Shown one piece after another: positions 16,091 to 37,053 of a stretch of 37,053 bases of DNA. How positions within the stretch are numbered: the stretch's first letter is position 1; each line of letters starts with the position of its first letter. This DNA is from Rhodobacteraceae bacterium PARR1 (GTDB lineage Bacteria; Pseudomonadota; Alphaproteobacteria; Rhodobacterales; Rhodobacteraceae). Under the pieces are notes generated by a model. The model was not told the origin of the DNA. It made no database searches and worked only from the letters and a program-made list of their open reading frames with translations. The translations under genes and the position numbers were made by a program. Location: NCBI GenBank assembly GCA_002256185.1, contig NKIT01000006.1, forward strand, positions 28,648 to 65,700, given 5' to 3'.

Positions 16091-16165
16091 GGCCCCGGTC
16101 ACGAGCGGCGGGCAAAATCCGTTCAGGACACGGGAACGGTGGCCCCCTGTCATGAACGGTCGGGG
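16091..16165 (+). promoter_or_regulatory. Direct repeats in the divergent RTX/LytTR intergenic region
   Basis: The segments starting GGCCCCGGTCACGAGCGG (16091) and GGCCCCCTGTCATGAACGG (16141) are similar over about 23 bases and lie one after the other 50 bases apart. A further CGGTCAT is at 16064. LytTR proteins bind paired direct repeats, so these are candidate sites for the adjacent regulator. The 328-base spacer (15928-16255) shows no other gene and no clear -10/-35 pair. Confidence 0.4.
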
Positions 16166-16255
16166 CCTTGGCACGAATGGCTGGCGCGGGGGCTTGTCGA
16201 AATGGCGGCGGAATCCGAGTCTCGCCCCCGCAATGCGGCGGTTGGGGACAGGGCT

Positions 16256-17335: not shown

Positions 17336-19318
17336 TCACTCCGTCGGCCCCGTAAACGCCAGCGACTTCTCCAACTGCTTGTCCATCGCCGTCTGGTCGC
17401 GGCGGGTTTTGGCGTGTTCGGCTTCGGCCCGCGCCTGCGCCATGCGCGGCAGCAGCCAGCGGAGCGGCGGTATGGGCGCATAGCGCACCAGATGCGCCAG
17501 CCACGGGGCAAAGCGGGTGAAGAGTTCATCCCGCGCGGTCACAATCGCCTCGGTCGTGCCGGGGTTGCCTTGGCGACCTGTGCGGCCATAAAGCTGGCGG
17601 TCGATGCGGGCACTTTCGTGGAATTCGGTCAGGATGACATGGATGCCGCCCGCCGCCAGCACCTCTGCCGCCGGGTGAATATCCGTGCCGCGCCCGGCGA
17701 TATTGGTGGCCACGGTCACGGCCCCCGGCTGACCCGCTTGGGCGATGATGTCCGCCTCGGCCCGGTCTTGCGTGGCGTTCAGCACCTCATGCGGCACATC
17801 GCGTTCCAGCAAGACAGCGGCACAGGCACGCGACGCCTCAACCGAGCGTGTGCCCACCAGCACAGGCCGACCCTTGGCGCGCATCTCAACCACCCGATCC
17901 GCCACGGCCTGCCATTTCGCACCCTCATCCGCCACAAAGCGCGTGCCCATGTGGCGGCGCTGCATCGGGCGGTGGCGGGGGATGCGCACTGTGGTCAGAT
18001 CAAAGGTGTCGCGGAATTCGCCCGCCAACTCCATCCCGGTCCCGGTCATCCCCGACAGGCGCAGAAAGCGGCGGAAGAAGCGTTGATAGGTGATCCGGGC
18101 GAGCACCTCTTTGCGGCCCGTCACGGCGACGCCTTCCTTCGCCTCGATCATCTGATGCAGACCGCCTTGCCACGACCGATCCGGCATGATGCGGCCGGTG
18201 TATTCGTCGACGATCTGCACCTTATCCTCCTGGATCACATAGTCCCGACCGAGGGCAAACAGGTGAAACGCCGACAGCGCCTGTTGCGCCAATTCTTCGC
18301 GCGCAAGACGCACTTGCCACAGGCCGGGCAAGTCCTTGGCGAGGACCGCCAACCGGTCCTTGCCCGCGTCCAACACCTCAATCTGGCGGTTCATGCGGTC
18401 GATGCGGAAATCCCGGCCTTCGGTCAATGCGCGCACCAGACGCAGGGCATCGGCATAGATCGCCGCCGCCTCTGGGTCATCGGCGGTAGAGGACAGGATC
18501 AGTGGCGTCTTGGCCTCATCCACGAACACACTGTCCGCCTCATCCACGATCGCAAAGGCGAGGCCGCGCAGCATCAGCGCCCCGGCGGCACCGTGGGACA
18601 AGGCCAGCGCCCGATGGCGCGCCCTGCCCCGCCGTGCCTTGAGCGCGATACGGTCGCGCAGATAGTCAAAGGTCAGGTTGGCGTTCGACACATAGGTGAT
18701 GTCGCAGGCATAGGCGGCACGCCGCGCCTCGGGGTCCATTTCGGTATCGATAACACCCAAGGTCAGGCCGAAGAACGCGTAAACCGGCTTGCATTCCGCC
18801 GCATCCCGGGCGGCGAGGTAGTCGTTCACCGTCACCACATACACGGGATCGCCTGCCAAGGCCGCCACCACAGCCGCAGGGGCGGCGGTCAGGGTTTTGC
18901 CCTCACCTGTTGCCATTTCGACCATGCGGCCTTCGTACAGGCCCAAGGCCCCCATGATCTGCACCTTGTAATGCCGCTTGCCCAAGGTGCGGGCCGAGGC
19001 TTCGCGCACCAGCGCAAAGGCGCGGATAAGCGCCGCGACATCGCTGCGCCGATGGGCCAAAAGCCGGGGCCGCAACGCCTGTGCCTGCAGGCGCAGGGCG
19101 TCGTCGGTCAGCGGTTCCAGTTCCGCCTGCAAGGCCAGCACGGCATCGGCACGGCGCGACAGGCGACGGCGGATGAAGGGGCTGCGCGATTGCAGCCAAC
19201 CCAAGCGGCGTTCCAACCACAGGTCCACCACATTGCCCTTGGGGTCGGCGCGTTCGGCATAGGGGCTGACCCCAAGGCGCGGGCCATGAAGGCCAAGGAA
19301 CCCCTGCACCTCAGGCAT
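17336..19318 (-). CDS. Short SecA-like (accessory SecA2-type) translocase ATPase
   Basis: A 660-residue SecA homologue against about 900 for housekeeping SecA. The motor is intact: Walker A in EMATGEGKTLTA (134-145), VTVNDYLAARDA (162-173), Walker B and following motif IVDEADSVFVDEAKTPLILS (257-276), the crosslinking-domain segment with VDEYTGRIMPDRSWQGGLHQ, LSGMTGTG, TNIAGRGTDI and GRTGRQGNPG. After these motifs the protein soon ends; most of the C-terminal scaffold and wing region and the zinc-binding tail are missing. The first 50 residues (GFLGLHGPRLGV) are not SecA-like. Its ATG overlaps the stop of the M50/HlyD gene by 8 bases, so it is translationally coupled to the export-type genes. 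It probably drives export of the giant protein encoded by this operon; it is not the general SecA. Confidence 0.88.
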   Translation of the reverse strand: MPEVQGFLGLHGPRLGVSPYAERADPKGNVVDLWLERRLGWLQSRSPFIRRRLSRRADAVLALQAELEPLTDDALRLQAQALRPRLLAHRRSDVAALIRAFALVREASARTLGKRHYKVQIMGALGLYEGRMVEMATGEGKTLTAAPAAVVAALAGDPVYVVTVNDYLAARDAAECKPVYAFFGLTLGVIDTEMDPEARRAAYACDITYVSNANLTFDYLRDRIALKARRGRARHRALALSHGAAGALMLRGLAFAIVDEADSVFVDEAKTPLILSSTADDPEAAAIYADALRLVRALTEGRDFRIDRMNRQIEVLDAGKDRLAVLAKDLPGLWQVRLAREELAQQALSAFHLFALGRDYVIQEDKVQIVDEYTGRIMPDRSWQGGLHQMIEAKEGVAVTGRKEVLARITYQRFFRRFLRLSGMTGTGMELAGEFRDTFDLTTVRIPRHRPMQRRHMGTRFVADEGAKWQAVADRVVEMRAKGRPVLVGTRSVEASRACAAVLLERDVPHEVLNATQDRAEADIIAQAGQPGAVTVATNIAGRGTDIHPAAEVLAAGGIHVILTEFHESARIDRQLYGRTGRQGNPGTTEAIVTARDELFTRFAPWLAHLVRYAPIPPLRWLLPRMAQARAEAEHAKTRRDQTAMDKQLEKSLAFTGPTE

Positions 19319-21461
19319 TGAAGCGGCTCAGGAACAATTGCCGCACACGGCGCCAGATTTGCGCCCCGGCAGGTTCGGTGCCGTGGTCAAAGCGCACCAG
19401 AACCCGCGCGCCAAAAGGCGCATCGGCCAACCCCTCGGGCAAGGCGAGGTCAAAGACAAACCCCTGTTGCAGCAGGCGCTTGCCCTCGGGGTCGGTGGGA
19501 TCAGTCAGAAACGGCCCACCCCCTGCGTGCCCCAACGCGGGCGCAGGCAGGTCAGAGGTGGCTTGCGGCACAGCGCGGATCATCTGCGCCTGAAAAGGCG
19601 ACTCCAGATGGCCCGCCAGTTTCACCTCAACCCCGGTCAGATGGTCGCGCACCAGCGCGATATCGGCCTGTGACACCAGCACCCGCGCCACATCGGCACG
19701 CGGCGGCAGGATGTGGCCCAGAACATCGCCCTCGGCAATCCAGCGGCCTGCGAGATCGCCTTCGGCCATCACCGGGCGAAAGCGGCCCGCCAGACCCGCC
19801 GTCAGATGCTGCCGCGCCAGACGGTCTTGTTCGCGCGCCAGTTTCGCCTGCGCTTCGGCCAGTTCGACGCGGGCGGCCTCAAGCTTCGCGCGTTCGGTGA
19901 CGCTGGCCTGTTGCAGGCGCGTTTCGGCCTCTGTCACCGCCGCTTGCAAGGCCGCGATGCGTGCGCCAAGGCCGGGGTCAGTCAACACGGCGACCGTCTG
20001 ACCCGACACAACCCCCGCCCCTTCGGCCACCGGCAATTCCGCGACAAAGCCGCCCGCACCTGCGCGCAAGGTCGCAGCCTCGGGCAGCCAGATCACGCCT
20101 TCGGTATCGGTCCGCAGTGGCAGGGGGACAAAGGCCATCGCCGCCAGCAGAACCCCGATGCCGCCAAAGGTGATCCACCCCGCCCGCTTGCGCACCTTTC
20201 GCAGGCTGGAGGAGGTCGCGACATGGTGCAGCGCCTTGGCGACGGGTTTCACCAGCGACGTGAACACCGACCAGAGCGCCAACAGCACCCCCAGCAGGAA
20301 ATAGCTTTGCGCCACTACCAGCGCGATGCCCACCATCACCACCATGCGGTAGACAAAGGCCGCCGGGGCATAAAGCGCGAACCAAACCCGCTCTCCCACC
20401 GTCGAGGGGTCCGCCCGCAATTGCCGCGCGTTGAAAAGGCGGCGCTGGACCACATGGCCCCACCATTTGTTGGCACGTTGCGCAAGGTTCGGCACCTCGA
20501 TCACGTCCGAGAACACATAGTAGCCGTCGAACTTCAGCAAAGGATTGCCGTTGACGATCAAGGTGGACAGCCCGCCGATCATCACAAGGTTAAACGCCAC
20601 CGCCCGCACCAACCCCGGTTCCGCCGCCGCCCAGACCATCACCGCAATCGCGGCGACAAAGGTTTCGGCAAAGATGCCCCCCGCCGCCACCGCCGCACGA
20701 TGCCATTTCGACGGGAAAGCCGCAGCGGCAGAGGCATCGACATAAGGCACCGGAAAGAAGACCAGAAACATCACCCCCATTTCCCGCACCGCACCGCCCC
20801 GCGCCTTGGTCAGCCAGCCGTGTGTGAGTTCGTGCAGCGCTTTCAGGCAGGGGTAAGTCAACGCCGCGATCAGCAGGTTTTCGGCGGCGAGCAGACTGTC
20901 GGCGACGTCATTTGTCAGCGGCTCCCAGTGTATCCCCGCCGTCACCAAGCCTGCCAGCACCACGCAAAACCACAGTGCAAGGCCAAACCAGCCGGTCAGC
21001 CAGCGCACAAAAGGCATGGTCCGGGTCAGAAAGGCATCGGGGTCCCAGAGCGGCAACCGAAAGCTCATGGGATTGGTCAGGTTCTGTTTGACGATCTGAC
21101 GCGCGTTGCGTTCCTGCCGGTCCAAAAGGTCGGCGACATCGGGACTGCCGCGATACTGGATCAGGTCGTTTTGATGCAGTTGGGACAGCAGGCGGATCAC
21201 CTCATCCTGTCCCGGAGCGGCGGCGTCATGGCTGGCGGCCAGCTTTTGCCACACCTCATCCACCGTGCGTTCGCCATCAAAGCCGCCCACAATCATCCAT
21301 GCCGCAGGGGTGAAGCGGTGGATGCGGCCGGAGGAAGGATCATGCAGCACATACCACGCTTGCCCGCGATAGCGATGCCGAGTGATCCGCACATGGGCAC
21401 GAAGGCGCGGGCGCAAGGGGGCCACGCGATACCAAAGCGTTGAGAGGAACCCTTCCGCCAT
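19311..21461 (-). CDS. PqqD-like / M50 metalloprotease / HlyD-like fusion membrane protein
   Basis: A 716-residue membrane protein of three parts. Residues 1-110 resemble a PqqD-like peptide-binding fold (WYVLHDPSSGRIHRFTPAAW at 36-55, then TVDEVWQKL). Residues about 150-445 are a polytopic membrane domain with the site-2-protease zinc motif HELTH (210-214) and the second motif NGNPLLKFDGYY (304-315, Asp312), the latter close to NPxxxxDG of M50 enzymes. After a membrane segment (430-447), residues 450-716 form an HlyD-type adaptor: a lipoyl-like half, a coiled coil (about 500-550, AALQAAVTEAETRLQQA) and a barrel. The expected site is the inner membrane with the HlyD part periplasmic. M50/YydH-like proteins act on peptides; here it may process or translocate the giant protein. 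It starts 9 bases after the GAF-HlyD stop. Confidence 0.85.
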   Translation of the reverse strand: MAEGFLSTLWYRVAPLRPRLRAHVRITRHRYRGQAWYVLHDPSSGRIHRFTPAAWMIVGGFDGERTVDEVWQKLAASHDAAAPGQDEVIRLLSQLHQNDLIQYRGSPDVADLLDRQERNARQIVKQNLTNPMSFRLPLWDPDAFLTRTMPFVRWLTGWFGLALWFCVVLAGLVTAGIHWEPLTNDVADSLLAAENLLIAALTYPCLKALHELTHGWLTKARGGAVREMGVMFLVFFPVPYVDASAAAAFPSKWHRAAVAAGGIFAETFVAAIAVMVWAAAEPGLVRAVAFNLVMIGGLSTLIVNGNPLLKFDGYYVFSDVIEVPNLAQRANKWWGHVVQRRLFNARQLRADPSTVGERVWFALYAPAAFVYRMVVMVGIALVVAQSYFLLGVLLALWSVFTSLVKPVAKALHHVATSSSLRKVRKRAGWITFGGIGVLLAAMAFVPLPLRTDTEGVIWLPEAATLRAGAGGFVAELPVAEGAGVVSGQTVAVLTDPGLGARIAALQAAVTEAETRLQQASVTERAKLEAARVELAEAQAKLAREQDRLARQHLTAGLAGRFRPVMAEGDLAGRWIAEGDVLGHILPPRADVARVLVSQADIALVRDHLTGVEVKLAGHLESPFQAQMIRAVPQATSDLPAPALGHAGGGPFLTDPTDPEGKRLLQQGFVFDLALPEGLADAPFGARVLVRFDHGTEPAGAQIWRRVRQLFLSRFNA

Positions 21462-21470
21462 CCCGCGCCC

Positions 21471-23315
21471 CTACGGCTGCCATGTCCACAGCGTGCGGCG
21501 CGCCCAATCCACCATCCGCCGCGACCAGACCCAGACCACGCGGGCCTGTCCCACCTCCAGCTTCGCCGCCCCTTCCATCCCCGGACGCAGGCCCTGCGGC
21601 GGGGCGTCCAAGGCAGCCTCGACGCGGAAGGTATTGGCACCTTCGCGCGCCTCGGCCAGTGGGGTGATGCGGGTGACGGTCAGCGCCAGACCGTCGGATG
21701 GCTGCCCCGCCAGCGCCACCACGCCACCCATCCCCGCCGTCACATAGCGCAGGTCACGCTCATCGACGAAGATATCCACGCGGTAACGGTCCAAGGGGGC
21801 CACCTCAAACAGCACTTCCCCCAACTGCACGGGCGCGCCGAGCTTTTGGCTCAGATCCCCCGTCACGATCACCCCGTCGATGGGGGCAAGCAGCCTTGAC
21901 CGGGAAAGCTGCGCTTCGGCGAGGTCTGATTGCGCGCGGGCTTGGGCGATTTGCGCCTCCAAGAGCGCCACCTGTGCGCGGTCTTTCTTGGCCAAAGCCT
22001 CACGCGATTGGCTGGACAGGCGATCCATCTCGGACCGCCAGCGCAGCGCCTCAAGCCGCAGGTCGGCCTCATCCAGTTGCACCAGAACGTCGCCCTTTTG
22101 CACCTGATCCCCGGCACGCAAAGGCGCTTCGGCGATGAAGCCGGCATAGGGGGCGACGACGGCGCGGTTGACCTCTCCGCGCAAGACCGCATCGGCCTGC
22201 ACGCGGAATACCCCCGTGGCGGTGGCCCCACCGACGATCACCCCCAACGCGACCAAAGCGCCCAGCTTCCACGACATATGGCGCGGCCCCAGCACCCGGC
22301 CCAGCACATGCCCCAGCCCATCCACCAGACGCCCACCGATCCAGCGGCGATTGCGGCGTTTGAGTTCCAGCACCGGGCCGATCAGGGCGGCAATCGCCTC
22401 GGCCATCGCCTTGTCATCTTCGGTAAAGGGGCGGTCGTCGCGGCGTTCGACACTCATCGCGCCCACGGGGCCGTTCGCTTCCGACAAGGGCACCGTCAGC
22501 ATATTCCGGGTGCGCGATCCCCTGACGTGGTCCGCATGCGCCACCGAAATCGCGGTGGACAGCGACGCCAAGGGGGGATGGCTGACCGGGGCCATCTGGT
22601 CAAAGCATTCCTCCATCGCGGCTTCAACCGAATCCACGATCTCGGCCCGTTTTCGAAACCACGCCGAATAGGACAGCGCGAGCAGCCGCACGCGGGGATG
22701 CCGCGCCCGCCCACGGACCATGCCGATGCTGACCTGATCCGCACCCAAGGCCGTCTGCGCCTCATTCACGATGGCCATGGCGGCGGCTTCGGGTTTGGCA
22801 TGTTCCGACGCCACCGCCAGAATATCCAAGGCCACCGCAGACCGCCGCAACCGCGCCGCTGTTTCCGTGGCCGCATGTTCCCAGCCATGCGCCGCCAGCC
22901 AGCCAGAGGCCCAATGCGCCTCGCGCAGCGCCAATTGGGCTGTCTCATCGCTGCCGCCCGGCAGGTCCAGCACCACCACGGCAGCAGGGGCTTGGCCCGG
23001 ACCCATCTGCACCGGATAGGCGGCGACCATCCCGCCCTCCACCACCAGCGCGGCAGGACGGCCCGAGGACAGCACCTTTTCCGCCGCCGGGGCAAAGCGG
23101 CTGACATCGCGGCGCGGGTCGGGGACGATGGCCACCGGGGTAAAGGCCCCCCCCTGCGGCAGCATCAAGACGCCCAAGGTGCAGCCCGGAACCCGGCCCA
23201 TCAGAATGGCCAGCCATGCGGTAAAGCGCGCCGCATCATTGCGCGCGGTGACGAAAGCGGACCACAGGCTGCGGTCCAGCCCAACTGGCGCGCGCAGGTC
23301 GGCGGCAGTGCTCAT
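21471..23315 (-). CDS. GAF-domain / single-TM / HlyD periplasmic adaptor fusion
   Basis: A 614-residue protein. The cytoplasmic N-terminal half has a region about 20-140 of GAF-like size and a clearer GAF domain at about 165-315 (ALDILAVASEHAKPEAAAMA, then MLTVPLSEANGPVGAMSVER). One membrane helix follows (about 350-370, LGALVALGVIVGGATATGVF). The periplasmic half is an HlyD/RND adaptor: lipoyl motif AVVAPYAGFIAEAPLRAGDQ (385-404) with VQKGDVLVQLDEADL, a coiled coil (about 415-475), the returning lipoyl half RLLAPIDGVIVTGDLSQKLG, and a beta-barrel. A sensor domain fused to an adaptor is unusual and suggests that a cytoplasmic ligand gates assembly. It starts 15 bases after the DUF3467 stop and ends 9 bases before the M50 gene. 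Confidence 0.85.
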   Translation of the reverse strand: MSTAADLRAPVGLDRSLWSAFVTARNDAARFTAWLAILMGRVPGCTLGVLMLPQGGAFTPVAIVPDPRRDVSRFAPAAEKVLSSGRPAALVVEGGMVAAYPVQMGPGQAPAAVVVLDLPGGSDETAQLALREAHWASGWLAAHGWEHAATETAARLRRSAVALDILAVASEHAKPEAAAMAIVNEAQTALGADQVSIGMVRGRARHPRVRLLALSYSAWFRKRAEIVDSVEAAMEECFDQMAPVSHPPLASLSTAISVAHADHVRGSRTRNMLTVPLSEANGPVGAMSVERRDDRPFTEDDKAMAEAIAALIGPVLELKRRNRRWIGGRLVDGLGHVLGRVLGPRHMSWKLGALVALGVIVGGATATGVFRVQADAVLRGEVNRAVVAPYAGFIAEAPLRAGDQVQKGDVLVQLDEADLRLEALRWRSEMDRLSSQSREALAKKDRAQVALLEAQIAQARAQSDLAEAQLSRSRLLAPIDGVIVTGDLSQKLGAPVQLGEVLFEVAPLDRYRVDIFVDERDLRYVTAGMGGVVALAGQPSDGLALTVTRITPLAEAREGANTFRVEAALDAPPQGLRPGMEGAAKLEVGQARVVWVWSRRMVDWARRTLWTWQP

Positions 23316-23330
23316 GTCACGGCGGCCCGG

Positions 23331-23663
23331 TTATTCCCCAAGCGGCCCATGGCGTTTCTCATGCTCGTCGATCAGGCGGACCATCATGTCGCGCAACCGC
23401 TTGGCGGCATGGGGCGACATCACGATGCGGTGGTGCAACTGCACCTTCAGCCGTTCATTCCCCATGTCCCAACTGTCATTCAGGCCAAAGTTCAGCACCA
23501 CCTCTTCGCGGGTCGAAGTGCCGTTGGTCACGTTGCAATAGCTGGATTTCAACTGCGAGGTGTCGAATTGCACCTGACTGGGCGGCAGGGTCGTCGCGCG
23601 GGTCACGGGCGCGGCGGCAGGTTCAGCTTCGGTCTTGGCCGCGGGTTGCGGGGTCTTTGCCAT
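23331..23663 (-). CDS. DUF3467-family protein
   Basis: A 110-residue protein. An Ala/Pro-rich, apparently disordered N-terminus (1-28) precedes the DUF3467 core: SQLKSSYCNVTNGTSTREEV (36-55), VLNFGLN, and LKVQLHHRIVMSPHAAKRL (72-90). The ATG at 23663 is preceded by GGAAGA. The biochemical role of the family is not known to me. Its place between the giant gene and the two adaptor genes suggests a small cytoplasmic partner, perhaps a chaperone or targeting factor. It starts 17 bases after the giant stop codon. Confidence 0.85.
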   Translation of the reverse strand: MAKTPQPAAKTEAEPAAAPVTRATTLPPSQVQFDTSQLKSSYCNVTNGTSTREEVVLNFGLNDSWDMGNERLKVQLHHRIVMSPHAAKRLRDMMVRLIDEHEKRHGPLGE

Positions 23664-23680
23664 GGGTCTTCCTTTGGTCT

Positions 23681-26600
23681 TCAACGGTCGGGCATGTGCA
23701 GCGGGCTGGCCAGCGGCACGGTCGTTTGCGGCGCGGCTTGCGCGAGGGTCGTCGTGTTGGGCTGGTCGATCCAGCCGACCGTGCCATCTTCCAGCGGAAT
23801 ATCGGCCCCGTCCAGCGACAAGGACTTGATCCTGATCTTGCCGGTGCCGCGCCCGGTCCCGGCAGGCCGGGCAAAGGCGATGCAAGCCAGCACCGCAAGT
23901 TCCGGCAAAAGCGACGGCAGACCCGTCACGCGCAATTCTGCCTCACCCACGTCAGGGCGGTCGTTCAGCGTCACCTCAGCCCCTTCGACAGTGCCCAAGA
24001 CCCCGCCCAAGGACAGCGCGCCCCGGTCATAGTCCAGCACCAGCCGCACATCGGATGCGGCCCCCCCAAGGCCCGAGAAGCGGAAGCCGACGTAGCCGCC
24101 AGACAGCGCGGCGGGGTCGATCAGCCGCGTGCCGGGAGTGGATGCGCCAAAGCCCGACACCACCACATCCATCAGCGCCGGGGGCTCCTCGGCCAGACCA
24201 AGCTGCACGCCAAGATCAATCCGCACCGGACCCGACGGGCCATCCGGCGTCACGGCGGGGGCATCGGTCACAGGCTGGCCGTTGATCGACAGGGTGCGCA
24301 CCGTCAGCCCTGCGCCTGCAATCTGATCGCCTTGCAAGACCCGGATGCGGAACAGGTCCAGCGTCCCGGCGGGCAGCGGTTGTTCTGACCGCACCGTCAC
24401 GCGCATCACCGGGGGCTTGCCCTCAGCGGTCGCGACATTGCTTTCGACGGTGATGCCAAAGGGCAGGCACACGCCCTGCACCGCATCAATCAAGGACAGG
24501 GTGCCGGAACGATGCGTCACCTCAAGGATGATCTCGCGCACGCCGCCATCCGACAGGAACAGCACCGGCACGATCTGGGCCAATGCGCCCATCGACGGGC
24601 TGCCACCGGGGACAGAAGCCAACGCCCCCGGCCCGGTGACCCGCGTCAGGCGCAAGGCGGGCAAGGTCACGGGTGGCACCTGCACGGGCTGGCTTTGAGG
24701 GCGCGCAAATTCGGCGAGGATCGGCGTCTGGCGCAGCGGCAGCGCAGCCTGCGGGGCCGTCACGGCTATGTCGAACCGCGCGATCCCGGTCAGGCCATCG
24801 GCATCGCGCACCTCGACCAGCACCACCGTTGCGCCTGTGCGGCCTGTCGTATCGGCGCGCAGGGTGCCCGTCACCGGGTCAAGCGTGACCCAATCCGGGG
24901 CCGACAGCAGGCGATAGGACAGCGCCGCAGCGGGGGTGTCATCATCCTGACCCAGCAGCGCCAGTGCCAACGGCTCACCTTCGACAAAGGCCAGACGGCG
25001 GCTGGCCAACACGGGGGCCGCGCGGACGGTGACGGTCAGGGATTGCTCGGCGCTCAGCCCATCGGCATTGGTGACCGACAGGGTGACGCGGAACGCCCCG
25101 GCGCGGCCTGTGCTGTCACCCGACAGACGGCCTGTCGCCGGGTCAACCACGATCCACTCCGGCCCCGACACCATGCGGAACACTAGACGATCCGCCGGAT
25201 CGGGACGCGCGGGCGCAATCACATCCAGCGACAGCGCATCGCCGCGCACCAGCGTGACATCGGCCACGGACAGCACCGGGCGCACGTTGACGTCTATGGT
25301 CAGCGTGATCTCATCGGTCAGCCCATCGGGGTCGGTGACGCGGAAGGTCGCGCGCTGTTCGCCGCCCCTGCCGGTGCTGTCGCCGGTGACAAGGCCGGTC
25401 TTGGGATCAACGCTGATCCATGCAGGCCCCGCGACCCGTTCAAACCGCAACGCCCCTGCGCCAAGGTCAAGGTCCGTGGCACTCAGCGGCAGGGACAGCG
25501 TCTGGCCTTCGATCAGGGTGACCGACGAGCCCGCCAGCACAGGCCGCGCGTTGATGTCGACGGCCACATCGGCCTCGGCGCTCAGGCCATTCTGGTCGGT
25601 GACGGACAGGCGCACCACCGCCTCGCCGGGGTGGCCACGGCTGTCACCGGACAGCGCCCCGGTCGCGGGATCAACGGTGATCCATGTGGGACCAGAGACC
25701 TTGGCAAAGGTGAATTGGGCAGACGTTGAGTCTGCATCGCGGACAGTGGGCGCAAAGGCCAGCGCCGCGCCTTCGGTCAGGGTGACAGCGCCACCCGTCA
25801 GGACCGGCACGGCAAGAACGGTGACCGTCAGCCTGCCCATGCTGGTCAGACCGTCACGGTCGGTGACGGATACCACAACCTCATGCCGCCCGACGCGGCC
25901 CGCGCTGTCGCCGCTGACCTGACCCGTCACGGGGTCGAAGGTGATCCACGTGGGGGCCGACACCAGAGCCAAGGTCAGATCGGCCACAGGCCCGTCCGCA
26001 TCGGTCGGGCTAAAGGTAAAGGCCAAGGCCCCGCCTTCGACCAAGGACAGGCCACTGTCCGTCACACGCGGCACAGCGTTGACGTCCACAATGACGTCAG
26101 CCTCAGCACTCAGCCCGTTTTGGTCGGTCACGGACAGGCGCAGCGTGGCCACGCCGGAATTGCCGGTGCTGTCGCCGCTGAGCGCGCCAGTGACTGGGTC
26201 AACGCTGATCCATGCCGGGCCTGACACCTTGGCAAAGCGGAATTGGCCTGCGACCGAATCCGCATCGGTGACGCCGGGAATAAAGGCCAGCGCGGCCCCT
26301 TCGGTCAGGGTGACAGCGCCGCCCGTCAGTTGCGGCTGATCCTGCACCAAAACCGTGATGTCGGCCTGCACGGACAGCTTGTCAGCGTCCGTCACCTCAA
26401 CCCGCAGGACATGCGTGCCGGTGCGCCCGGTGCTGTCGCCGCTGATCGCGCCGGTGGCGGTATCAACCGTGACCCAATCGGGACCGGACAGCTTGCGGAA
26501 GGTCAGGGCAGACACCGGCGCATCGGCATCGCTGGCGGCGATGGTTTGCGTCAGGGCCGCGCCTTCGATCACGGTAAAGGTCTGGGCAGCCAGCACGGGG

Positions 26601-29600: not shown

Positions 29601-32600
29601 ACCATGACAACGGACACGGCATCGCCAAGTCCCAAAAGCTGCGCGCTTTCAAGGAAGTCGAGCAGCACGCCCGCCGGTGTGGTCGCGGGTTTGCGTTCCA
29701 GCCCGATGTTCTTGATCGTGACGTTGGCGACTTTGCCGATCACCTCTGGCGGGATTTGGAAGGTGGCGGTCTGACTGGAGAACAGGCCCGGCTGGAAGAT
29801 GAAGTGGTTCGCCGTGGCAGGTGTATCGGTCTTGGGATCAATATAGGTCGCCTGCGCGACATAGCTGGCCCCGTCGACCAGTTGGAACGTCACCTCGGCC
29901 CGGAAATCATCGTTGACGTTGACGGGGATGAAGGCGTCAAACTTCAACTGCTGCACACCCGTCGGGATATACATGCGGTTATGGGTGATCTTGTCCACCT
30001 GACCGACAGCGTCGATCATGTTCAGGATCGCCTTTTGCGGGTCGAAGTGGTTGCCAAGGACCGTGAAACCGCCATCGGGGGTGAAGGTCTTGACCAGTTC
30101 CTTCAGCGCCTGACTGCCGCCCATCACCAGACCGAAATCAGCCTTGGTGTCCACTGTCGGGAAAAGCTGCGACAAGAAGGTGCCAAGGTTCTTCTGGCTC
30201 AGCGACGTCACGCCCGAAACATGCTTCAACCGCGCCTCACGGTCGGTTTCGGTGTTCAGGGGCGTGTCGGTCCGCACCGGGGTCTTGAAGATCAAGGCCA
30301 GCGGTCCCGCCCCGCCTGACAGGGTAAAGGCCCCCAGATCAAAGGCGGGCTTCTTCGGGTCCGTCTCGCGCGCCTTGTCCCAGTCCTTCTTGAACTCGGC
30401 CAGATACTCTTTGACAACATCGGTGCCCGAGGCCCATTTCAGCACGCCGTCCAGTATCTTGATCAAAAGATCCAACTGCGCCTGATCGTCGATGATGAAA
30501 TCCACCAAGGCATCTGCGGTGGCCCCGAACTTGGCGGCAGTCATCAACTCGTTGCCGTCATCGTCGACCAGCGAGAATATCTTCTTGCCGTCGGCATCCA
30601 AGGCTTCCTTGATCGTGCCGCCTTTGACCTTGGCCACGTTCTGGCGCGCCATATCGGCCTTTTTGTCCGGATCAAGCGAGAATTCCCAAGCCGGATTCTT
30701 CACGCGGTCCAAGGCCTTGGTCAGCCAGCGGTCAATCATCGGCTTGGCCGCACGGCCCGCTACGTCCAGAACCTCACCGATCCAGTTCTGGTTCATCAAG
30801 AACAGGCCAGTGATGTCGATCGGGCCATCCAGACCCATGTTTTCCGGCATCTTGCCGGTGAACAGGTCGAAGGTGAAGCTGACACCTTCATCCACCTTGT
30901 CGCCATCGTCGATGCCGCCATGCATCGACCACCCCGGCAGGTCGTAATGCAAGGGGAAGCGGCCCAGATCGGCGGGCAGGTCGGGAATGGACCCTATGGC
31001 CTTTTTGGCACTGCCAAAGAAGCCGCCTGACTTTTCCAGCTTTTGCTTGGCATCTGCCAGTGCGGCGGCTTTCGCGGCCTCTGGCGTGGCCTGGCTGGTC
31101 CGGTACTTGCCATAGATGTCATCCAGCAACCATTTCAGGTAGTTGGAAAACGCATGCCGCGTGCCTTGGCTGAAATCGCCGTTGAACACGCTGGGCACGG
31201 CGGCATAGGGCACAGGGATCTGCTTGGTCGGATCGGCCGGGTCTTTCATGAAACCCAACGAGGGGCGGTCCACCTCGGTGTTGTCGAAATCAAGCGGAGT
31301 GCGGACCTTGTCGGTCACCGCGTCCAGAATTTTCGGATCGCCCGCCACGCGCGAGAAGTAGAAGCCCACGCCCAGTGCCTCGTTCCGGTTGGTCGAGGTG
31401 TAGGTTTCGTTGCCATAAAGCGGATTATACCCCGCCGCCGGGAAATAGCGGTCAAGCTGGGATTTGATAATGGTCCACGAGCCCGTCTCGAACGTGATGG
31501 GATCGACGCCATACCAAGGCTGCTTGGTGAACTTGTTCGAGAAGAGCGCGGTAAACTCTTCCATGATCCCCGGATCAGCCGACGCGCCCACGGGCACGCC
31601 CTCATCCCCGGCGGTGCGCCAGATCGCCTCGCCGCCAAGATAGAGCGCGTTGACATCCGCCGTGCCCATATACCAGTTCGTGATCCGGCTGTGGGGGGTG
31701 GCAAAGAGGTCATCGGAAATGAAGCCCGGCACGTTCAGCGGCTTGTCGGCGGCATCCTTGGTAAAGCGGATTTCGACATCCGGCACGCCCTTGGGGCTGG
31801 GCAGTTTGTCCTTGCCGTCCTTTTCGGTCGGAATGGCGGTCCCGTTCGGCGTGGTGGTCTGGGTCAGCTTGATCGACCCTTCGACCGCTGCCCGCACGGT
31901 CCCGGCACTTTCCTCAGCGGTTTCCTGGAAATAGTTGTCGGCGAAGTCGATGTTGGACCAGACCTGAACGTTCGGGTCCTTGAAATCATCCCAGGCAATT
32001 TCCGCGATTTGCAGACCCATGAGGCTGGCAAGCTTGTAAAAGACGGTGGACACCGCCTCGGCAGCCTCGGCCCCCTTCAGGATCAAACCGCCCAGGAACG
32101 GGTTGGCGACCGTGACCACCCTGCCCACCACCTTGGCCACCTTGAGGTAACTGTCGACGATCTTCTTGAACTCGACCTTCAGCGTGTCCTGCTTGAAGTC
32201 ATGCGGGTCCAGCGTGGTCATGTGAATGTCGATGTTTTTCCCAGCCGATTCCGGGAAATAGGTGCCGATCCGCTGGATCACCTCAGAGTTCACCACCGTG
32301 CCACGGCTGTGGCCGATAAAGTGCATCGGGCTGTCAAAGATATTGGTCTTTTCGTTCAACCACACGAGCGAGGCAAAGAACGCATCCGCCGCCGCCTCAG
32401 CAAAGCCTGCGTCAGATATGTCGCTTTCGCGATACCAATCCATCACGAGCGTCAACGCCGTGCCGCGTGGCAACGAGGCGGGCACGGCAGGCGCAGTGGC
32501 AATCCGCCCGCCGACCGGCTTGGTCGGATCATATTCGTGGAATCTGCCGGTCTGGCGGTTGTAGACAAGGATGGTTCCGCCGCCCGAACCCTCGCTCACC

Positions 32601-35600
32601 ACCTCGGCATTGGCCAGCCAGGCGGCCAGCGTGGACTCGTTCAGTGGCGTGTTGGCGTAATCCGGCATCGGGCTGATCTGGAAACCGTGGGTCAGCACGT
32701 TGACGGTGGAAAACTGTGTCAGATTGTCAATCACCGGTGGCGTTTCAAACACGGCATCGGCGCGCAATTCGCCGCCCGCCCGCGCGACGGCGACGCCCCA
32801 GTGATAGTCTTGGCTGCCAGTCAGAATCCGGCTCAGGCCCTTGGACACCTCAATGACCACGGCGGTCCGCAACTCTGCCCCGCCGGTCACATCGGCGGCG
32901 GTCAGGGCGCGTTCGGACTCGATCTTGCCGTTCGCGCCAAGCACGTAATACTTGCCGCTTTCAAAGGCGAATGACCCGATGCTTTGGCGCGTGTTGATCA
33001 AGCGCCATGTGTTGTAATCCTCGGCCTCGGTCGGGCTTGAGGCGAGGAACGCCCGATCCCGCGCCGCGTCACCGGGGAACAGCCCCGCGCCCGGCCCTTG
33101 GGTGGACACAAACAGATCCAGCTTGAAGGTGTTGGACCCGATCTTGCGCGGATCAAGATGCGCCTCAAACTTCAGGGGATCGACAGTGCCGGTGCCATTG
33201 ACCACCGTCACGCCGGTTGGGCGCACCAGTTCCACCAAGGCTTCGTCCTGAATGTCCAGACCGCGCCCGTAGAACAGGATGTCCAGCGGCGTGCCGTAAA
33301 TGTCCCGGCGTTGGTCGGTGAACACGCCCTGAAGCTCGTGATACCCAAGCTTCAGGTCAATCGGAACGATCCGGTTGCGCCCAAGGGTGCCGCCCTGCAC
33401 TTGCAGGTCCGAGGCCTTGATCGCCTCTTCCACCCGCAGCGTCACCAGCGATCCAGAACGGCGGAAGTTCGCGATCAACTGGCTGCCATCCGGCCGCATC
33501 GCCAGTTCGGTCAGGAATTGCCCGTTGATCGGGCTGGTCGATCCGACCAGCCCCGCCGTGCCGTATTCATATTGGTAGGTGTGGGCCTTGTTGGCGTCGG
33601 CCCATGCCTTCTGGTCAAGATTGAACGGGTTGCGGATCAGGCCGATCTTGTTGCCCAACTCGTGCCGGTTCTCGATCTCATAGGCCAAAAGATAGTCGGT
33701 CATCGTCAGATAGCGCGACAGATCGTAGTCGGCGACAAAGGCATAGGTCATGTCGGGCGACAGTTCGACCGCCACCGGATAGCGGATGTCCAGATCATAC
33801 CGCTGCGGGGTGGCGCGGCGGTAACTGTCGATGATAAACTCCCCGATAACAATCGGTGAATACGCCACCCCGATGGTGCGCGCGTTCAGTTCCAGCGGTT
33901 GACGGGTGTCGCTGGAAGTGTCGGTCAGAGCCGGAACCTTGGTCACCGTGGCCGCGTAGTTTTCGGGATCGTCGCTGGTCACCTGGATCGTATAGAACCC
34001 GCTGCGGAAATCGCCGCGCGACACAAAGACCAGCCGGTTCGGATCACTGGACGCGTCGATGTCATAGGGGTCAAGCCCGGCGTCCAACGCCTTGATGACC
34101 TTGTGGAAGGTGGGCTTGCCGCGATCCGACGGATCGACGTTGACCACATAGATCTTGCCCTGCGGCGCGGTCGTGCGGTTGCGCGCCCAGCTTTGGTTGC
34201 CGAACATGCCAGAGAAGGGCACCGCCACATAAAGCTTCTTGCCATCGGCTGACAGTTCCAGATCGTTGATCTTGCCCTGCACATTGGCGATGGCTTCTGC
34301 CGGGATCGGCAGGCTGATCTGTTCACCCTTGAGGTAAGTCGACGATCCGGGGCGCAGGTCGATGACATGCACCTTGCCTGCGCCTGCAGCATAAAGGAAA
34401 TTGCCGTCACCCGACAGCGTCAGCTTCCCAACCTCACCGCCCGGCACCTTGATCATGCTCATGCCGGTGTCGTCGGGGTTCACGTCGAATTGCCGCAGCA
34501 TCAGCATGTCAACGACCGCGATGCCCTCTTTGGTCGAGATGAAGGCCGCCGAATTGTCGGCGGCAAAGACGACATCGTTCGGCCAATAGTTCAGAACACC
34601 GCCCTGCCCCCAGATCGGGATATTCTTGACCAGTTCGGTCTGTTCCGGCCCGGTGGGCGAGGCCCCTTCGGGCGCGACGTCGAACACCTGCAACACCATC
34701 TGCGACACGCCACCCATTGGCGTTGTGCCGCCCACCGCCGCATAGCCGCGCGTGTTCTTGATCTGGATGGGTTGGCTTGCCGTGCCCTTGCTGCCTTCGG
34801 TCCAGCCATTGAAAGACCCGTTGGCGGCACCCGGATCAGGCCGTTCAAAGGTGATGCGGGCCTTGGTCAGCAGGATGTCCTGCGGCACTTCGATCGAGAA
34901 ACTGGCGATGCCGGTGGTCTGGTCCATCGTCACATTCTTGAAATCCGCCCCGGTGACGTAGCGGGTGAAATTGCCGATGGCGAACTTGATCCGGCCATCC
35001 TTGACGTCCGACCCGAAGAACCCGCCCAAGGCGCTGTTGTCGGGGTAGAACATGTTCTGGCCGGTAAACTTCAGCGTGACGGCAGAGCCTGAAATCTGCG
35101 GCGTGACCGATTGGATTTGCGGGTCCGCGCCTTTGGCCGGGGTCAGGCTGCCCTTGGGCGACACCACGCTGAGGGTGATTTTGTCCGCCGGATTGCCCGC
35201 CGGAATGTCACGCTCCAGCGCTTTCTCGTAATCGGCCCCGTCAAGGTATTTTTCGTAAATCTTCACCCGGTCGGTCTGGCTGAGCGCATAGAAGGCAACG
35301 CCCACGCCGATCAGACCGATGCCCACCGCAGCCCCGGCCAGACCGCCCGTCGCGGCAAAGGCGATGCCCAGACCCACCGACACCCCGGCCATCGCCAGCC
35401 CTGCGGCAGAGGCCCAGGCAAAGCCGTCACGGATCGGCTGGTTGGCCTTGGCGACAAGGATCGACCCTTTTTCCGACAACCCCGGGAAGGGCGGCGAGGC
35501 TGTGCGCGCCACGCCGTTTTCATCCACGCGGCCCGTATCGACCAGACGCCAGATCTTGCCGTATTCCCCGCCCGAAATCTGGGTGAAGTCATCCAGCACA

Positions 35601-37053
35601 AAGAACAGCACCTGATCGCCGGGTGCGGCAACAGAGGCATCGACCTTGGCCCCCATCTGGATGGGGCCAGACAGGTTGCCGCCCGCAATCTCCAGCGTTG
35701 CGGCTTGCAGGAAGGTAAAGGCGGGCGGCACCGCAACCTCAAGCGCCGCCTCTTCAACCGCCGTGACCGTGACCGTTGGCGTGCCGTCCAACTGCCCCGC
35801 GCCAAAGGCCATCTCAATGCCTTCTGGCGTCAGGATCGCGCCGCCCGTGGCGGGGATGGCGGCAGAATTACCCTCAACCGGGGGGGCGACGGTGACTTCG
35901 ATCACCTCTTCCGCGCCACGGTAGATGATGGTGACGCAGGTCTTGCCTGTGCCCACCGCCCGAATCAGGCCGGTGTCACTGACGCTGATGATGTCGTCAT
36001 TGCCGCCGACATAGACCACGCCATCGGCCTTGTTGATGTAATCCAGCAGCCCTTTGCCCAATTCGGTGACGATCTGCCGCTTGCCGCCCGAGGGCAGAAT
36101 GGTGACCGCGTCAGGATAGGCATCAATCCCGAAAATCTGCGCGATGGCCCCGTTGGCGTCTGTGGCGCTGCCCACCGACATGGCCGTCGCCGCCGCCACC
36201 CCACCACGCCGGGCAGTGATGTAACCATCACCATCGGCAATCGCGGTCACAAGGCCAGCGTCGGACACCCGCACGACATTCGGGTTCGACGAAGTGACGC
36301 TGACATAGTCAAACGGCAGCACCACATCGGCCTGATCGGCGAATTGGCCGATGACGACGATGGGGCTGACCTCACCCGCCGCGTCAAAGGCATAGTCGCG
36401 CATCAGGAAGGACAGCTTCAGCAGTTCCGCATCAGAAACTGTCAGGTCCAGCGCGATTTCCCCGGTGGCGGCAAAGCCATCATCTGCCACCAGCGTGATC
36501 CGCGCCACCCCGGCAAAACCCGCATCCGGCCGCACGCGCAGGAATTGGCCATCGGGGGTGAAACTCGCCGTCACATGCTCGGTCGAGGCGATGCGGAAGA
36601 ACACCGGATCGCCGTCCGGATCACGCGCGACGTCGGAGAGTGTGACCAGTTGCGCAAGGTCCACATGTGTAAACAGCACCGGCAGGTTGGCCGCGACCGT
36701 TGGGGCCGCATTGCGACGGATGCCGAAGTTGACGTTCAACACCTGACGGTCCTGCGCGTTCACCGCGCCATTGCCGTCGATGTCCGTGCCAGCCCCCGCC
36801 AGACGCAAGAGGTCACTGTCCAACCCATCCACCGCGCCATCGGCGTTCAGATCGCCGCCAAGGCCGAGCGTCAGGGTAAACGCCCCTGTCCCGCCGATGT
36901 CCAGCCGATGCAAACCACCCGTGGTAAAGCTGTATAGCGCCACATTGCCGCCCGGACCGCTCCGCTGCGACAAAAGCTGCGCCCCGGTGATGACCGGCAC
37001 CGCGCCCGCCGCATCAGTGGCCACGCGCAGGATCAGACGGCCACCGGCGGCGG
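23681..37053 (-). CDS. Giant multidomain surface/secreted protein, 5' end beyond the window
   Basis: At least 4456 residues, open to the window edge; numbering here starts at an internal GTG at 37024. Visible modules from the N-terminal side: dockerin-like calcium pair (57-101); an Ig/cadherin-like domain (107-200); Big2-like domains (215-400); a Gly/Ala hydrophobic stretch (534-581); a propeller-like region (about 810-1205); an alpha/beta hydrolase with THG, GHSRG (Ser1573), LDPHD (Asp1606) and His1778; a Lys-rich unknown region near 30300-30800; a matrixin-like site HEMGNVMGLSD (2606-2616); a jelly-roll/CBM-like module (28490-28980); a VCBS/cadherin-like domain; thirteen 88-residue Ig-like repeats; and two cohesin-like modules (24600-24250 and 24180-23800). 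Dockerin and cohesin in one chain suggest self-association. It is the likely cargo of the downstream export genes. Whether an LEPR-XLL-type N-terminus exists cannot be seen. Confidence 0.9.
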   Translation of the reverse strand, partial: AAGGRLILRVATDAAGAVPVITGAQLLSQRSGPGGNVALYSFTTGGLHRLDIGGTGAFTLTLGLGGDLNADGAVDGLDSDLLRLAGAGTDIDGNGAVNAQDRQVLNVNFGIRRNAAPTVAANLPVLFTHVDLAQLVTLSDVARDPDGDPVFFRIASTEHVTASFTPDGQFLRVRPDAGFAGVARITLVADDGFAATGEIALDLTVSDAELLKLSFLMRDYAFDAAGEVSPIVVIGQFADQADVVLPFDYVSVTSSNPNVVRVSDAGLVTAIADGDGYITARRGGVAAATAMSVGSATDANGAIAQIFGIDAYPDAVTILPSGGKRQIVTELGKGLLDYINKADGVVYVGGNDDIISVSDTGLIRAVGTGKTCVTIIYRGAEEVIEVTVAPPVEGNSAAIPATGGAILTPEGIEMAFGAGQLDGTPTVTVTAVEEAALEVAVPPAFTFLQAATLEIAGGNLSGPIQMGAKVDASVAAPGDQVLFFVLDDFTQISGGEYGKIWRLVDTGRVDENGVARTASPPFPGLSEKGSILVAKANQPIRDGFAWASAAGLAMAGVSVGLGIAFAATGGLAGAAVGIGLIGVGVAFYALSQTDRVKIYEKYLDGADYEKALERDIPAGNPADKITLSVVSPKGSLTPAKGADPQIQSVTPQISGSAVTLKFTGQNMFYPDNSALGGFFGSDVKDGRIKFAIGNFTRYVTGADFKNVTMDQTTGIASFSIEVPQDILLTKARITFERPDPGAANGSFNGWTEGSKGTASQPIQIKNTRGYAAVGGTTPMGGVSQMVLQVFDVAPEGASPTGPEQTELVKNIPIWGQGGVLNYWPNDVVFAADNSAAFISTKEGIAVVDMLMLRQFDVNPDDTGMSMIKVPGGEVGKLTLSGDGNFLYAAGAGKVHVIDLRPGSSTYLKGEQISLPIPAEAIANVQGKINDLELSADGKKLYVAVPFSGMFGNQSWARNRTTAPQGKIYVVNVDPSDRGKPTFHKVIKALDAGLDPYDIDASSDPNRLVFVSRGDFRSGFYTIQVTSDDPENYAATVTKVPALTDTSSDTRQPLELNARTIGVAYSPIVIGEFIIDSYRRATPQRYDLDIRYPVAVELSPDMTYAFVADYDLSRYLTMTDYLLAYEIENRHELGNKIGLIRNPFNLDQKAWADANKAHTYQYEYGTAGLVGSTSPINGQFLTELAMRPDGSQLIANFRRSGSLVTLRVEEAIKASDLQVQGGTLGRNRIVPIDLKLGYHELQGVFTDQRRDIYGTPLDILFYGRGLDIQDEALVELVRPTGVTVVNGTGTVDPLKFEAHLDPRKIGSNTFKLDLFVSTQGPGAGLFPGDAARDRAFLASSPTEAEDYNTWRLINTRQSIGSFAFESGKYYVLGANGKIESERALTAADVTGGAELRTAVVIEVSKGLSRILTGSQDYHWGVAVARAGGELRADAVFETPPVIDNLTQFSTVNVLTHGFQISPMPDYANTPLNESTLAAWLANAEVVSEGSGGGTILVYNRQTGRFHEYDPTKPVGGRIATAPAVPASLPRGTALTLVMDWYRESDISDAGFAEAAADAFFASLVWLNEKTNIFDSPMHFIGHSRGTVVNSEVIQRIGTYFPESAGKNIDIHMTTLDPHDFKQDTLKVEFKKIVDSYLKVAKVVGRVVTVANPFLGGLILKGAEAAEAVSTVFYKLASLMGLQIAEIAWDDFKDPNVQVWSNIDFADNYFQETAEESAGTVRAAVEGSIKLTQTTTPNGTAIPTEKDGKDKLPSPKGVPDVEIRFTKDAADKPLNVPGFISDDLFATPHSRITNWYMGTADVNALYLGGEAIWRTAGDEGVPVGASADPGIMEEFTALFSNKFTKQPWYGVDPITFETGSWTIIKSQLDRYFPAAGYNPLYGNETYTSTNRNEALGVGFYFSRVAGDPKILDAVTDKVRTPLDFDNTEVDRPSLGFMKDPADPTKQIPVPYAAVPSVFNGDFSQGTRHAFSNYLKWLLDDIYGKYRTSQATPEAAKAAALADAKQKLEKSGGFFGSAKKAIGSIPDLPADLGRFPLHYDLPGWSMHGGIDDGDKVDEGVSFTFDLFTGKMPENMGLDGPIDITGLFLMNQNWIGEVLDVAGRAAKPMIDRWLTKALDRVKNPAWEFSLDPDKKADMARQNVAKVKGGTIKEALDADGKKIFSLVDDDGNELMTAAKFGATADALVDFIIDDQAQLDLLIKILDGVLKWASGTDVVKEYLAEFKKDWDKARETDPKKPAFDLGAFTLSGGAGPLALIFKTPVRTDTPLNTETDREARLKHVSGVTSLSQKNLGTFLSQLFPTVDTKADFGLVMGGSQALKELVKTFTPDGGFTVLGNHFDPQKAILNMIDAVGQVDKITHNRMYIPTGVQQLKFDAFIPVNVNDDFRAEVTFQLVDGASYVAQATYIDPKTDTPATANHFIFQPGLFSSQTATFQIPPEVIGKVANVTIKNIGLERKPATTPAGVLLDFLESAQLLGLGDAVSVVMVVDDIRLVAVGSNQTAATVGTGGQVALTVAEAQALAEVAEGIWIDKALVGGASDLLDGFEIRVADLEGDKLAYSEGRIITLDRDAAGNGWFIDATPGTAEEFAPVPGAPHVWQALAGGAAAGRVDLLTVLMHEMGNVMGLSDLVDPTGPGYLMTGILDTGMRRAPSASDIGATPVVVPEAKPESFGLGVAPGAVAAAFAAAPIAAAAVVATDFQNGDFAGGLTGWTTSGNVAVTGGAVVMTEDLGAMSGLSQTFKLPAAATAIQFRLSGLTLKAIAGSAPDAFEVALFEAGTTTPILPAIASLTGTDAVLNIQADGTRHTSAAVGIADVGGALVVTLDLTGLAVRPDAVTLSFDLIGLGARDASARVDDVRLLGLAPNTAPVAAGETARTDEDTQVDINILGNDSDAEGDPLILEVLSDLGGARLLALGNGVFRYTPAPNQTGTVEIDYRLFDGVDRSNTAKLTVTIDPVNDAPTIDAIARRVVARGTPVTVTPVARDPDAAAGELRFTLEDGPSDATLDPATGRLDWTPTTVGDRTVRISVRDAVGASSERSYVIAVRSAPVLSVSDVAVTQGAPLVHAVSASDEDGGAGLLFAKTAGPNWISINPVTGAVTGNTAGQVGVFDVTVTVTDPDGLTATRTFAVDVNVAPQISAGNVTLVAGEALSITPLVVDPDSAAGNLTFALAAGAPAWLIVDAATGEVTGDSTGQVGAVSFGLTVMDEAGLSASTTVTVTVRARPVLALTNTSLTEGATLSHAISATDADSAPASLRYSKIAGPDWISVDALTGALSGNSTGHVGTVPVTIRVVDPDGLAAEGTLSVRVNAVPLVSLTDQIVVEGAALALTPAVTDADSPAADLRFEKVSGPAWISVDAATGVISGDTTGQVGLATLRLRVTDAQGLSAEAEAKITVRARPVLVLTDTSLVMGDALAHSVSATDADGPTADLRFVKVAGPDWISVDAVTGAVTGDSTGHPGAVTVTVAVTDGDRLRAEGTFRVDVNARPVLAAQTFTVIEGAALTQTIAASDADAPVSALTFRKLSGPDWVTVDTATGAISGDSTGRTGTHVLRVEVTDADKLSVQADITVLVQDQPQLTGGAVTLTEGAALAFIPGVTDADSVAGQFRFAKVSGPAWISVDPVTGALSGDSTGNSGVATLRLSVTDQNGLSAEADVIVDVNAVPRVTDSGLSLVEGGALAFTFSPTDADGPVADLTLALVSAPTWITFDPVTGQVSGDSAGRVGRHEVVVSVTDRDGLTSMGRLTVTVLAVPVLTGGAVTLTEGAALAFAPTVRDADSTSAQFTFAKVSGPTWITVDPATGALSGDSRGHPGEAVVRLSVTDQNGLSAEADVAVDINARPVLAGSSVTLIEGQTLSLPLSATDLDLGAGALRFERVAGPAWISVDPKTGLVTGDSTGRGGEQRATFRVTDPDGLTDEITLTIDVNVRPVLSVADVTLVRGDALSLDVIAPARPDPADRLVFRMVSGPEWIVVDPATGRLSGDSTGRAGAFRVTLSVTNADGLSAEQSLTVTVRAAPVLASRRLAFVEGEPLALALLGQDDDTPAAALSYRLLSAPDWVTLDPVTGTLRADTTGRTGATVVLVEVRDADGLTGIARFDIAVTAPQAALPLRQTPILAEFARPQSQPVQVPPVTLPALRLTRVTGPGALASVPGGSPSMGALAQIVPVLFLSDGGVREIILEVTHRSGTLSLIDAVQGVCLPFGITVESNVATAEGKPPVMRVTVRSEQPLPAGTLDLFRIRVLQGDQIAGAGLTVRTLSINGQPVTDAPAVTPDGPSGPVRIDLGVQLGLAEEPPALMDVVVSGFGASTPGTRLIDPAALSGGYVGFRFSGLGGAASDVRLVLDYDRGALSLGGVLGTVEGAEVTLNDRPDVGEAELRVTGLPSLLPELAVLACIAFARPAGTGRGTGKIRIKSLSLDGADIPLEDGTVGWIDQPNTTTLAQAAPQTTVPLASPLHMPDR
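24761..28195 (-). repeat. Thirteen tandem 264-bp repeats encoding Ig-like (He_PIG/cadherin-like) domains
   Basis: Each unit is 88 residues (one has 89). It begins with a joint such as NARP or RARP, followed by LTEGxxLxxxxxxxDAD, then SGPxWISVDPxTGxxSGDSTG and VxVTDxxGLSAEA. Boundaries at 25552, 25288 and 25024 are exactly 264 bases apart. Joints starting with Asn and with Arg partly alternate. Such domains form stiff rods that carry adhesive modules away from the cell. Confidence 0.92.

Follow-up and report, generated by a model that had tools for sequence, protein, structure and literature searches.

What is the function of an operon in which a SecA-like motor, a membrane protease with an HlyD arm and a second HlyD-type adaptor are encoded next to a giant surface-type protein? 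The operon lies in the window, by which we mean the whole stretch of 37,053 nucleotides of Rhodobacteraceae bacterium PARR1 that was analysed. The window forms the terminal 37 kb of contig C207 (65,700 bases) in a 4.1 Mb assembly of 285 contigs, and its final base is the final base of that contig. Five genes lie on the minus strand in the order giant, DUF3467, GAF-HlyD, M50-HlyD and SecA-like. The first-pass annotation had read them as one operon, and the gene coordinates bear this out, with intergenic spacings of 17, 15 and 9 bases and then an 8-base overlap. A pattern scan of positions 15500-26000, which is a weak test, found no terminator-like site on the minus strand. Beyond the operon, on the same strand, is a 1,499-aa protein (11458-15957) with RTX-type repeat matches. 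Its C-terminal part, from about position 12090, looks Hint-like by eye. A LytTR-type regulator (15773-17089, plus strand) points toward the 3' end of the operon; its frame overlaps the 1,499-aa gene, and the regulator itself probably begins further into the frame. We consider it fairly probable that the operon codes for a machine dedicated to the export, and probably also to the leader processing, of very large surface or secreted proteins.

The four small proteins of the operon

Most of the domain identities assigned earlier from motifs were recovered by Pfam; the exceptions, cohesin and dockerin, concern the giant. The SecA-like protein (660 aa, 17336..19318, minus strand) matched SecA_DEAD (1.6e-100), P-loop_SecA (5e-47) and SecA_PP_bind (4.3e-24), and Pfam gave no match to SecA_SW, the wing-scaffold part. 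A profile of 20 SecA-like homologues scored 675 bits to solved SecA. Residues G138, G140, K141, D259, E260 and D262 are invariant in all 20 aligned sequences, and the translation contains the Walker A motif TGEGKT at 18893..18910 (minus). The closest relatives of this protein in the genome scan are from Rhodobacteraceae.

The M50-HlyD protein (716 aa, 19311..21461, minus) matched PqqD (2.3e-6), HlyD_3 (3.5e-6) and Peptidase_M50 (1.5e-4; 21.6 bits, under the Pfam cut-off of 27.2). Its zinc-protease motif HELTH is located at 20820..20834 (minus). H210, E211 and H214 of this motif, together with N306 and D312, are invariant in 20/20 aligned sequences, and HExxH was found in 20/20 and 11/11 sequences of two alignments. 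The protein scored 137.8 bits to the NCBIfam model of the daptide_HExxH intramembrane metalloprotease, below the cut-off of 300. The AlphaFold2 model of M50-HlyD has a pLDDT of 85. Its head (residues 16-105, 21147..21416, minus), the proposed leader reader, is predicted to fold like the leader-binding RRE domains; the comparison was made with VIA-align as a second look at Foldseek's top chains. In this respect the head resembles RiPP RRE machinery such as lasso-peptide B1 and PqqD, although the proposed cargo of the module is thousands of residues long and not a small peptide. The head is kept in relatives that lack the SecA-like protein (hhalign probability 97.4). Counting against its reading as a leader reader, it aligns equally well to GdmN and to a methyltransferase.

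The GAF-HlyD protein (614 aa, 21471..23315, minus) matched GAF (1.4e-9), HlyD_3 (2.5e-21) and HlyD_D23 (2.2e-14). The DUF3467 protein (110 aa, 23331..23663, minus), whose start codon was picked by homology, matched Pfam DUF3467 (1.4e-15). We tried the idea that it is a chaperone and set it aside: its AlphaFold2 model (pLDDT 55) was too poor for a fold search, and a sequence search of the PDB gave one weak match (E 0.018). We guess that DUF3467 may be an accessory protein.

Conservation of the gene set and its relation to known systems

Scanning genomes with the SecA-like protein gave 258 relatives, and 80 loci were kept. The M50 gene was beside the SecA-like gene in 72/72 relative loci that extend 2.3 kb or more upstream and so have space for it, and GAF-HlyD was present in 63/63 loci with 4.6 kb of room. 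Rougher counts, which took blastp matches anywhere in a locus with room, gave DUF3467 in 18/53, a small HlyD of the HlyD/biotin_lipoyl type in 40/69, and OEP in 11/49 relative loci. Five of six OEP candidates tested near the module in relatives proved to be OEP. The 14 Rhodobacteraceae-type loci in which the whole stretch is visible (L042-L047, L049, L050, L052, L054-L058) have the window order of giant, DUF3467, GAF, M50 and SecA; in L052 and in L056, which is from Pseudooceanicola batsensis HTCC2597, an additional frame separates DUF3467 from GAF. The gene set of the window is beyond chance association. The comparison across genomes also did not overturn the link with the giant, which the first-pass annotation had said would fall if the four genes were common without a giant protein. 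Two loci of relatives contain unusual neighbours. A TolC-family OEP protein in L214 (869-2677, plus) has a C-terminal He_PIG Ig-like domain, and in L218 a DUF3467 relative (8534-8827, plus; 30.7 bits) precedes a GAF-HlyD/M50-HlyD pair that lacks SecA.

This gene set is not new. Kamneva, Poudel and Ward described in 2015 (PMC4452313) loci with SecA_DEAD, M50-HlyD and GAF-HlyD. The window operon resembles the secondary SecA_DEAD locus in the accessible part of that paper, in which SecA_DEAD without SecA_SW, M50-HlyD and GAF-HlyD occur in one locus, and to which some genomes add OEP and another HlyD/biotin_lipoyl protein. Methylobacterium extorquens AM1 is listed there among the carriers. Its authors proposed a type-I-like system with SecA as the ATPase and called the broader role completely unknown. 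The same part names no cargo, LEPR leader, RRE function or DUF3467. To that account the present analysis adds a cargo rule, the proposed reading by RRE and the versions without SecA. A search of the open literature, with most subscription journals outside its scope, found no published cargo of such a machine.

The operon is like the type I system (HlyB-HlyD-TolC) in its HlyD-type adaptors, in the OEP channels of its relatives and in giant repeat adhesins as likely cargo. It differs in that the conserved cargo mark is N-terminal and that the operon has no ABC exporter: Pfam found none among the five genes, as the first-pass annotation had said. The ABC gene of the window (9648-10763) is MalK-like and has sugar-transport neighbours. 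The claim that TolC is lacking was right locally, in that no TolC-family protein was found among the window genes scanned; it does not extend to the relatives with OEP near the module or to the rest of the source genome, which has three OEP genes, all on other contigs. One reading would follow the 2015 suggestion and take the operon as a general type-I-like exporter in which SecA replaces the ABC ATPase, with no special class of cargo. The HlyD adaptors and the OEP near some loci fit it, as do the loci in the available part of PMC4452313 for which no ABC exporter is reported.

The giant protein next to the operon

The frame of the giant (23681..37053, minus) is open to the contig end, and the C-terminal 4,456 aa only are in view. 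Pfam found 13 He_PIG, 8 Big_9 and cadherin repeats. This part is 44% identical to residues 8589-11628 of a 12,229-aa giant of Pseudooceanicola batsensis, with further matches up to residue 12205. Since it matches the C-terminal third of this homologue, the window probably holds about one third of a protein of about 12,000 aa. Its N-terminus is out of view because the 5' end is beyond the contig end. The P. batsensis giant stops ahead of the DUF3467, GAF, M50 and SecA genes. Laminin_G_3, CARDB, PPC and He_PIG domains were found in its first 7,420 residues, and it starts with ..HVETLEPRILLSADL.., in which the LEPR motif is present.

The first-pass annotation had called the giant a cohesin/dockerin protein, and this identity was searched at the genome, whole-protein and segment levels. 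Cohesin found no support, as Pfam gave no match in the whole giant or in its last 368 aa. There was no dockerin match in the whole giant or the genome. An isolated 81-aa segment with calcium repeats (36695..36937, minus) scored 21.1 bits to Dockerin_1 against a cut-off of 22.9, and its best match in a PDB search was a dockerin (E 0.01). The segment is thus dockerin-like at most. By eye, a lipase-like GHSRG (32300-32314, minus) and HEMGN (29195-29209, minus) suggest possible enzyme domains among the repeats.

The sole LEPR-8K start (defined below) of the source genome is on contig C117 (L017, 9733-15348), where a 1,872-aa frame runs off the contig. That this start is on another contig counts against the proposed tie. 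We do not claim that it joins the window giant, because by eye its N-terminal sequence does not resemble the start of the P. batsensis homologue. The source genome has a second set of GAF-HlyD, M50-HlyD and SecA-like genes on contig C282 (L019, 1092-16696). This set directly follows a further giant frame, 3,153 aa or longer, whose repeats differ from those of the window giant.

An N-terminal LEPR motif marks the putative cargo

Giants beside module genes tend to start with a basic stretch and the motif ..E.LEPR.LLSAD. The motif corresponds to LEPR-8K, the NCBIfam model NF012209 (LEPR-XLL, 24 positions), whose name denotes the short motif at the start of the cargo and gives it no function. We chose 37 of the 80 loci for a search with this model; two were not included, which left 35 genomes reached via module loci. 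LEPR-8K matched in 31 of them, in frames of up to 14,574 aa.

To compare genomes with and without the module, we used M50+ for genomes with an M50-HlyD profile match. The class sample centred on Rhizobacter sp. Root404 (G305, locus L065) has 293 genomes, among them G305 itself and G312, both already known to carry the module. M50-HlyD was found in 43 (at E 1e-20 or better) and LEPR-8K in 26 of these genomes. LEPR-8K occurred in 22/43 M50+ against 4/250 M50- genomes (P = 1.6e-17 by Fisher test, which here and below treats genomes as independent although they are related by descent; the assemblies compared include incomplete ones). In the window's class (289 genomes) the figures were 2/12 and 4/277 (P = 0.02), a poor separation if taken alone. 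Two sets of genomes count against the tie. Twenty-one of the 43 M50+ genomes of the G305 class had no LEPR-8K match, and LEPR-8K without a detected M50 gene was found in G399 and G535, plus G442 and G559, which were counted as positive in the two-by-two table and have frames of 99 and 168 aa that are probably due to chance. A relaxed search of these four genomes and of G567, G608 and G445 gave generic HlyD matches only.

The LEPR frame is also physically linked to the module. In 11 of the 22 LEPR+ M50+ genomes, a LEPR frame and the M50 gene are no more than 15 kb apart, in all 11 on the same strand. This count took in 34/36 LEPR matches (G442 and G559 left out) and 30/47 M50 matches; none of the M50 genomes omitted has a LEPR match. 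We then asked whether the giant beside the module is itself the LEPR protein, by checking if its stop coincides, to within 400 bases, with that of a LEPR frame from the genome concerned (genome, strand and coordinates were compared, not contig names). It was LEPR-headed in 15 of 22 loci that we picked, with frames of 7,850-14,138 aa. It was not in the other seven (L042, L044, L046, L050, L058, L061 and L113), several of which are on short contigs. Among long frames near modules with a visible start, the nine taken as giants have the motif, which the pattern found in six and inspection by eye in three (L108, L111 and L116). Frames near the module without it are L113 (1,312 aa, giant-like and perhaps a fragment) and two of about 1,000 aa in L120.

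The starts picked by LEPR-8K (54 distinct starts from 58 loci) are conserved outside the fixed pattern, with glutamate at -2 (47 starts), proline at +2 (43), alanine at +8 (43) and aspartate at +9 (46). On average, the stretch of up to 60 residues ahead of the motif carries a net charge of +5, with values between -1 and +15. These statistics describe the leader rather than test it, because LEPR-8K itself selected the starts. The comparison of N-terminal sequences supports a putative cargo class marked by a basic stretch and then hydrophobic-E-x-L-E-P-R-x-L-L-S-A-D, without a Sec hydrophobic core. Some module genomes have several LEPR-8K starts (8 in G322, 6 in G313, and 5 each in G308 and G314); with five to eight in one genome, one machine may serve many cargo proteins.

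The tie to the LEPR giants could also arise if the module acted in maturation and not in transport. The giants would then cross by another route, such as ordinary type I, and the module would recognise LEPR to cut, anchor or check them. In favour of this, the M50 active site is invariant, GAF suggests sensing, and the M50 gene is absent from some LEPR genomes. The available part of PMC10868602 reports a giant of some 8,000 aa from Vibrio, with LEPR-XLL at its N-terminus and RTX and serralysin domains at its C-terminus. Such a C-terminus would fit ordinary type I, so LEPR and type I secretion may overlap. On the other hand, the HlyD arms and the OEP partners are parts of a conduit.

DUF4347 proteins as a natural control

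LEPR-8K misses leader variants such as LEELESRQLFSGG and LEPRMMFDAAG. We therefore dropped it as the only marker of cargo and used DUF4347 proteins as a natural control. DUF4347 was found in 24/43 M50+ and 9/250 M50- genomes of the G305 class (P = 1.7e-16), and in 8/12 M50+ and 8/277 M50- genomes of the window's class (P = 5.3e-9). Thirteen of the 43 M50+ genomes of the G305 class lack both LEPR-8K and DUF4347, which again counts against the tie. N-termini were examined at 30 loci of 37 matches in the G305 class and for 28 of 31 matches in the window's class, in which 30 loci were given and L279 (internal stop) and L289 (internal second domain) were dropped. With one uniform pattern, which superseded earlier looser patterns read partly by eye, a LEPR motif was found upstream of DUF4347 in 27/29 M50+ but only 4/17 M50- genomes (P = 1.9e-6). 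The same pattern was found in 0.13% of shuffled N-termini and in 0/59 module proteins.

The exceptions were inspected individually. The M50- genomes with a motif ahead of DUF4347 are G567, G608, G445 and G193, the last of which is 64% complete. Of the two M50+ exceptions, G580 has a variant motif by eye and was counted as motif-less, and the DUF4347 protein of G312 has a strongly hydrophobic N-terminus (14-residue mean 2.57). Motif-bearing N-termini had hydrophobicity of 1.66 or less. The G305 class has six M50- DUF4347 proteins that lack the motif: four start with a hydrophobic, Sec-like stretch (1.7 to 2.45), and the remaining two do not. Their counterparts in the window's class mostly have very short N-termini. 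Together, the counts and the N-terminal hydrophobicity indicate that the DUF4347 family usually has LEPR with the module and sometimes a Sec-like signal without it. The leader tends to occupy the position at which M50- relatives have a Sec-like hydrophobic start, which argues against a role in maturation without transport.

Optional nature of the SecA-like motor

In the G305 class, 16 of 30 loci have a SecA-like gene next to M50. We searched with the SecA-like profile in 22 genomes that we had chosen mostly for having no such gene beside M50. Canonical SecA, which served as the control, was seen in 21 of them. Proteins that outscore canonical SecA were found only in G000 (the source genome), G305 and G403; the other 19 genomes have none, and 17 of these are M50+. 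The SecA-like motor is thus optional. Some loci without SecA have OEP, a small HlyD, GAF-HlyD, M50-HlyD and a LEPR giant together (for example G601, G546, G441 and G484); this is not so in all.

These results bear on three readings. No ATPase was found near the modules without SecA in the searches made, which fits maturation, but the SecA-like motor is present in many versions (the 16/30 loci above) and, with the conduit parts and the exchange of leaders, leads us to regard maturation without transport as unlikely. A general exporter driven by SecA is harder to reconcile with 17 M50+ genomes that lack the SecA-like gene and with the strong tie of the module to LEPR giants; we give it little credence. 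The third reading is an accessory Sec route like that of Gram-positive SecA2, in which the SecA-like protein would read the cargo and push it through SecYEG with the HlyD proteins as helpers. What the two share is an additional, divergent SecA next to a large surface protein, and the 675-bit family profile and the retained SecA_PP_bind agree with it. The module differs, however, in its HlyD adaptors, in the undetected SecA_SW and in the motor missing from some versions, and Pfam found no second SecY among the operon genes. LEPR-8K genomes also account for 10/14 loci of this gamma set without an adjacent SecA-like gene, against 12/16 with one. An accessory Sec route therefore appears very improbable, and the genomes without SecA make it unlikely that the SecA-like protein is a necessary reader of LEPR.

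Proposed model and significance

Export by a dedicated machine remains our preferred explanation. The RRE/PqqD-like head of M50-HlyD would bind the LEPR leader at the cytoplasmic face, in the way that RiPP enzymes bind leader peptides, and the M50 part in the membrane would pass or cut the leader. The conduit would be formed by the HlyD arms of M50-HlyD and GAF-HlyD, by the small third HlyD of many relatives, which was not found in the window operon, and by an OEP channel of the TolC family. For the window version, we suggest that the SecA-like motor, with its ATPase and preprotein cross-linking domains kept, feeds the chain in. Versions without it may use housekeeping SecA or another energy source. 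The earlier proposal of a dedicated route that joins a Sec-type motor to type-I-like adaptors thus gains strong comparative support, with export itself as the proposed activity, but the SecA-like motor is not obligatory and the gene set has been known since 2015. More tentatively, and with somewhat less than even confidence, we suggest that this is a separate secretion system outside the numbered types, in which a RiPP-like LEPR leader on proteins that reach about 14,000 residues would be read by an RRE-protease-HlyD fusion and the protein passed through HlyD and OEP, with a SecA-like motor in some lineages only.

Joining the module to the LEPR leader would bring together a machine described in 2015 with its role unassigned and the unexplained LEPR-XLL motif of some very large bacterial proteins, so that the machine gets a cargo and the motif a function. 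It would explain how proteins of about 10,000 residues get to the surface with no Sec signal peptide, and the link lets the cargo be predicted from sequence.
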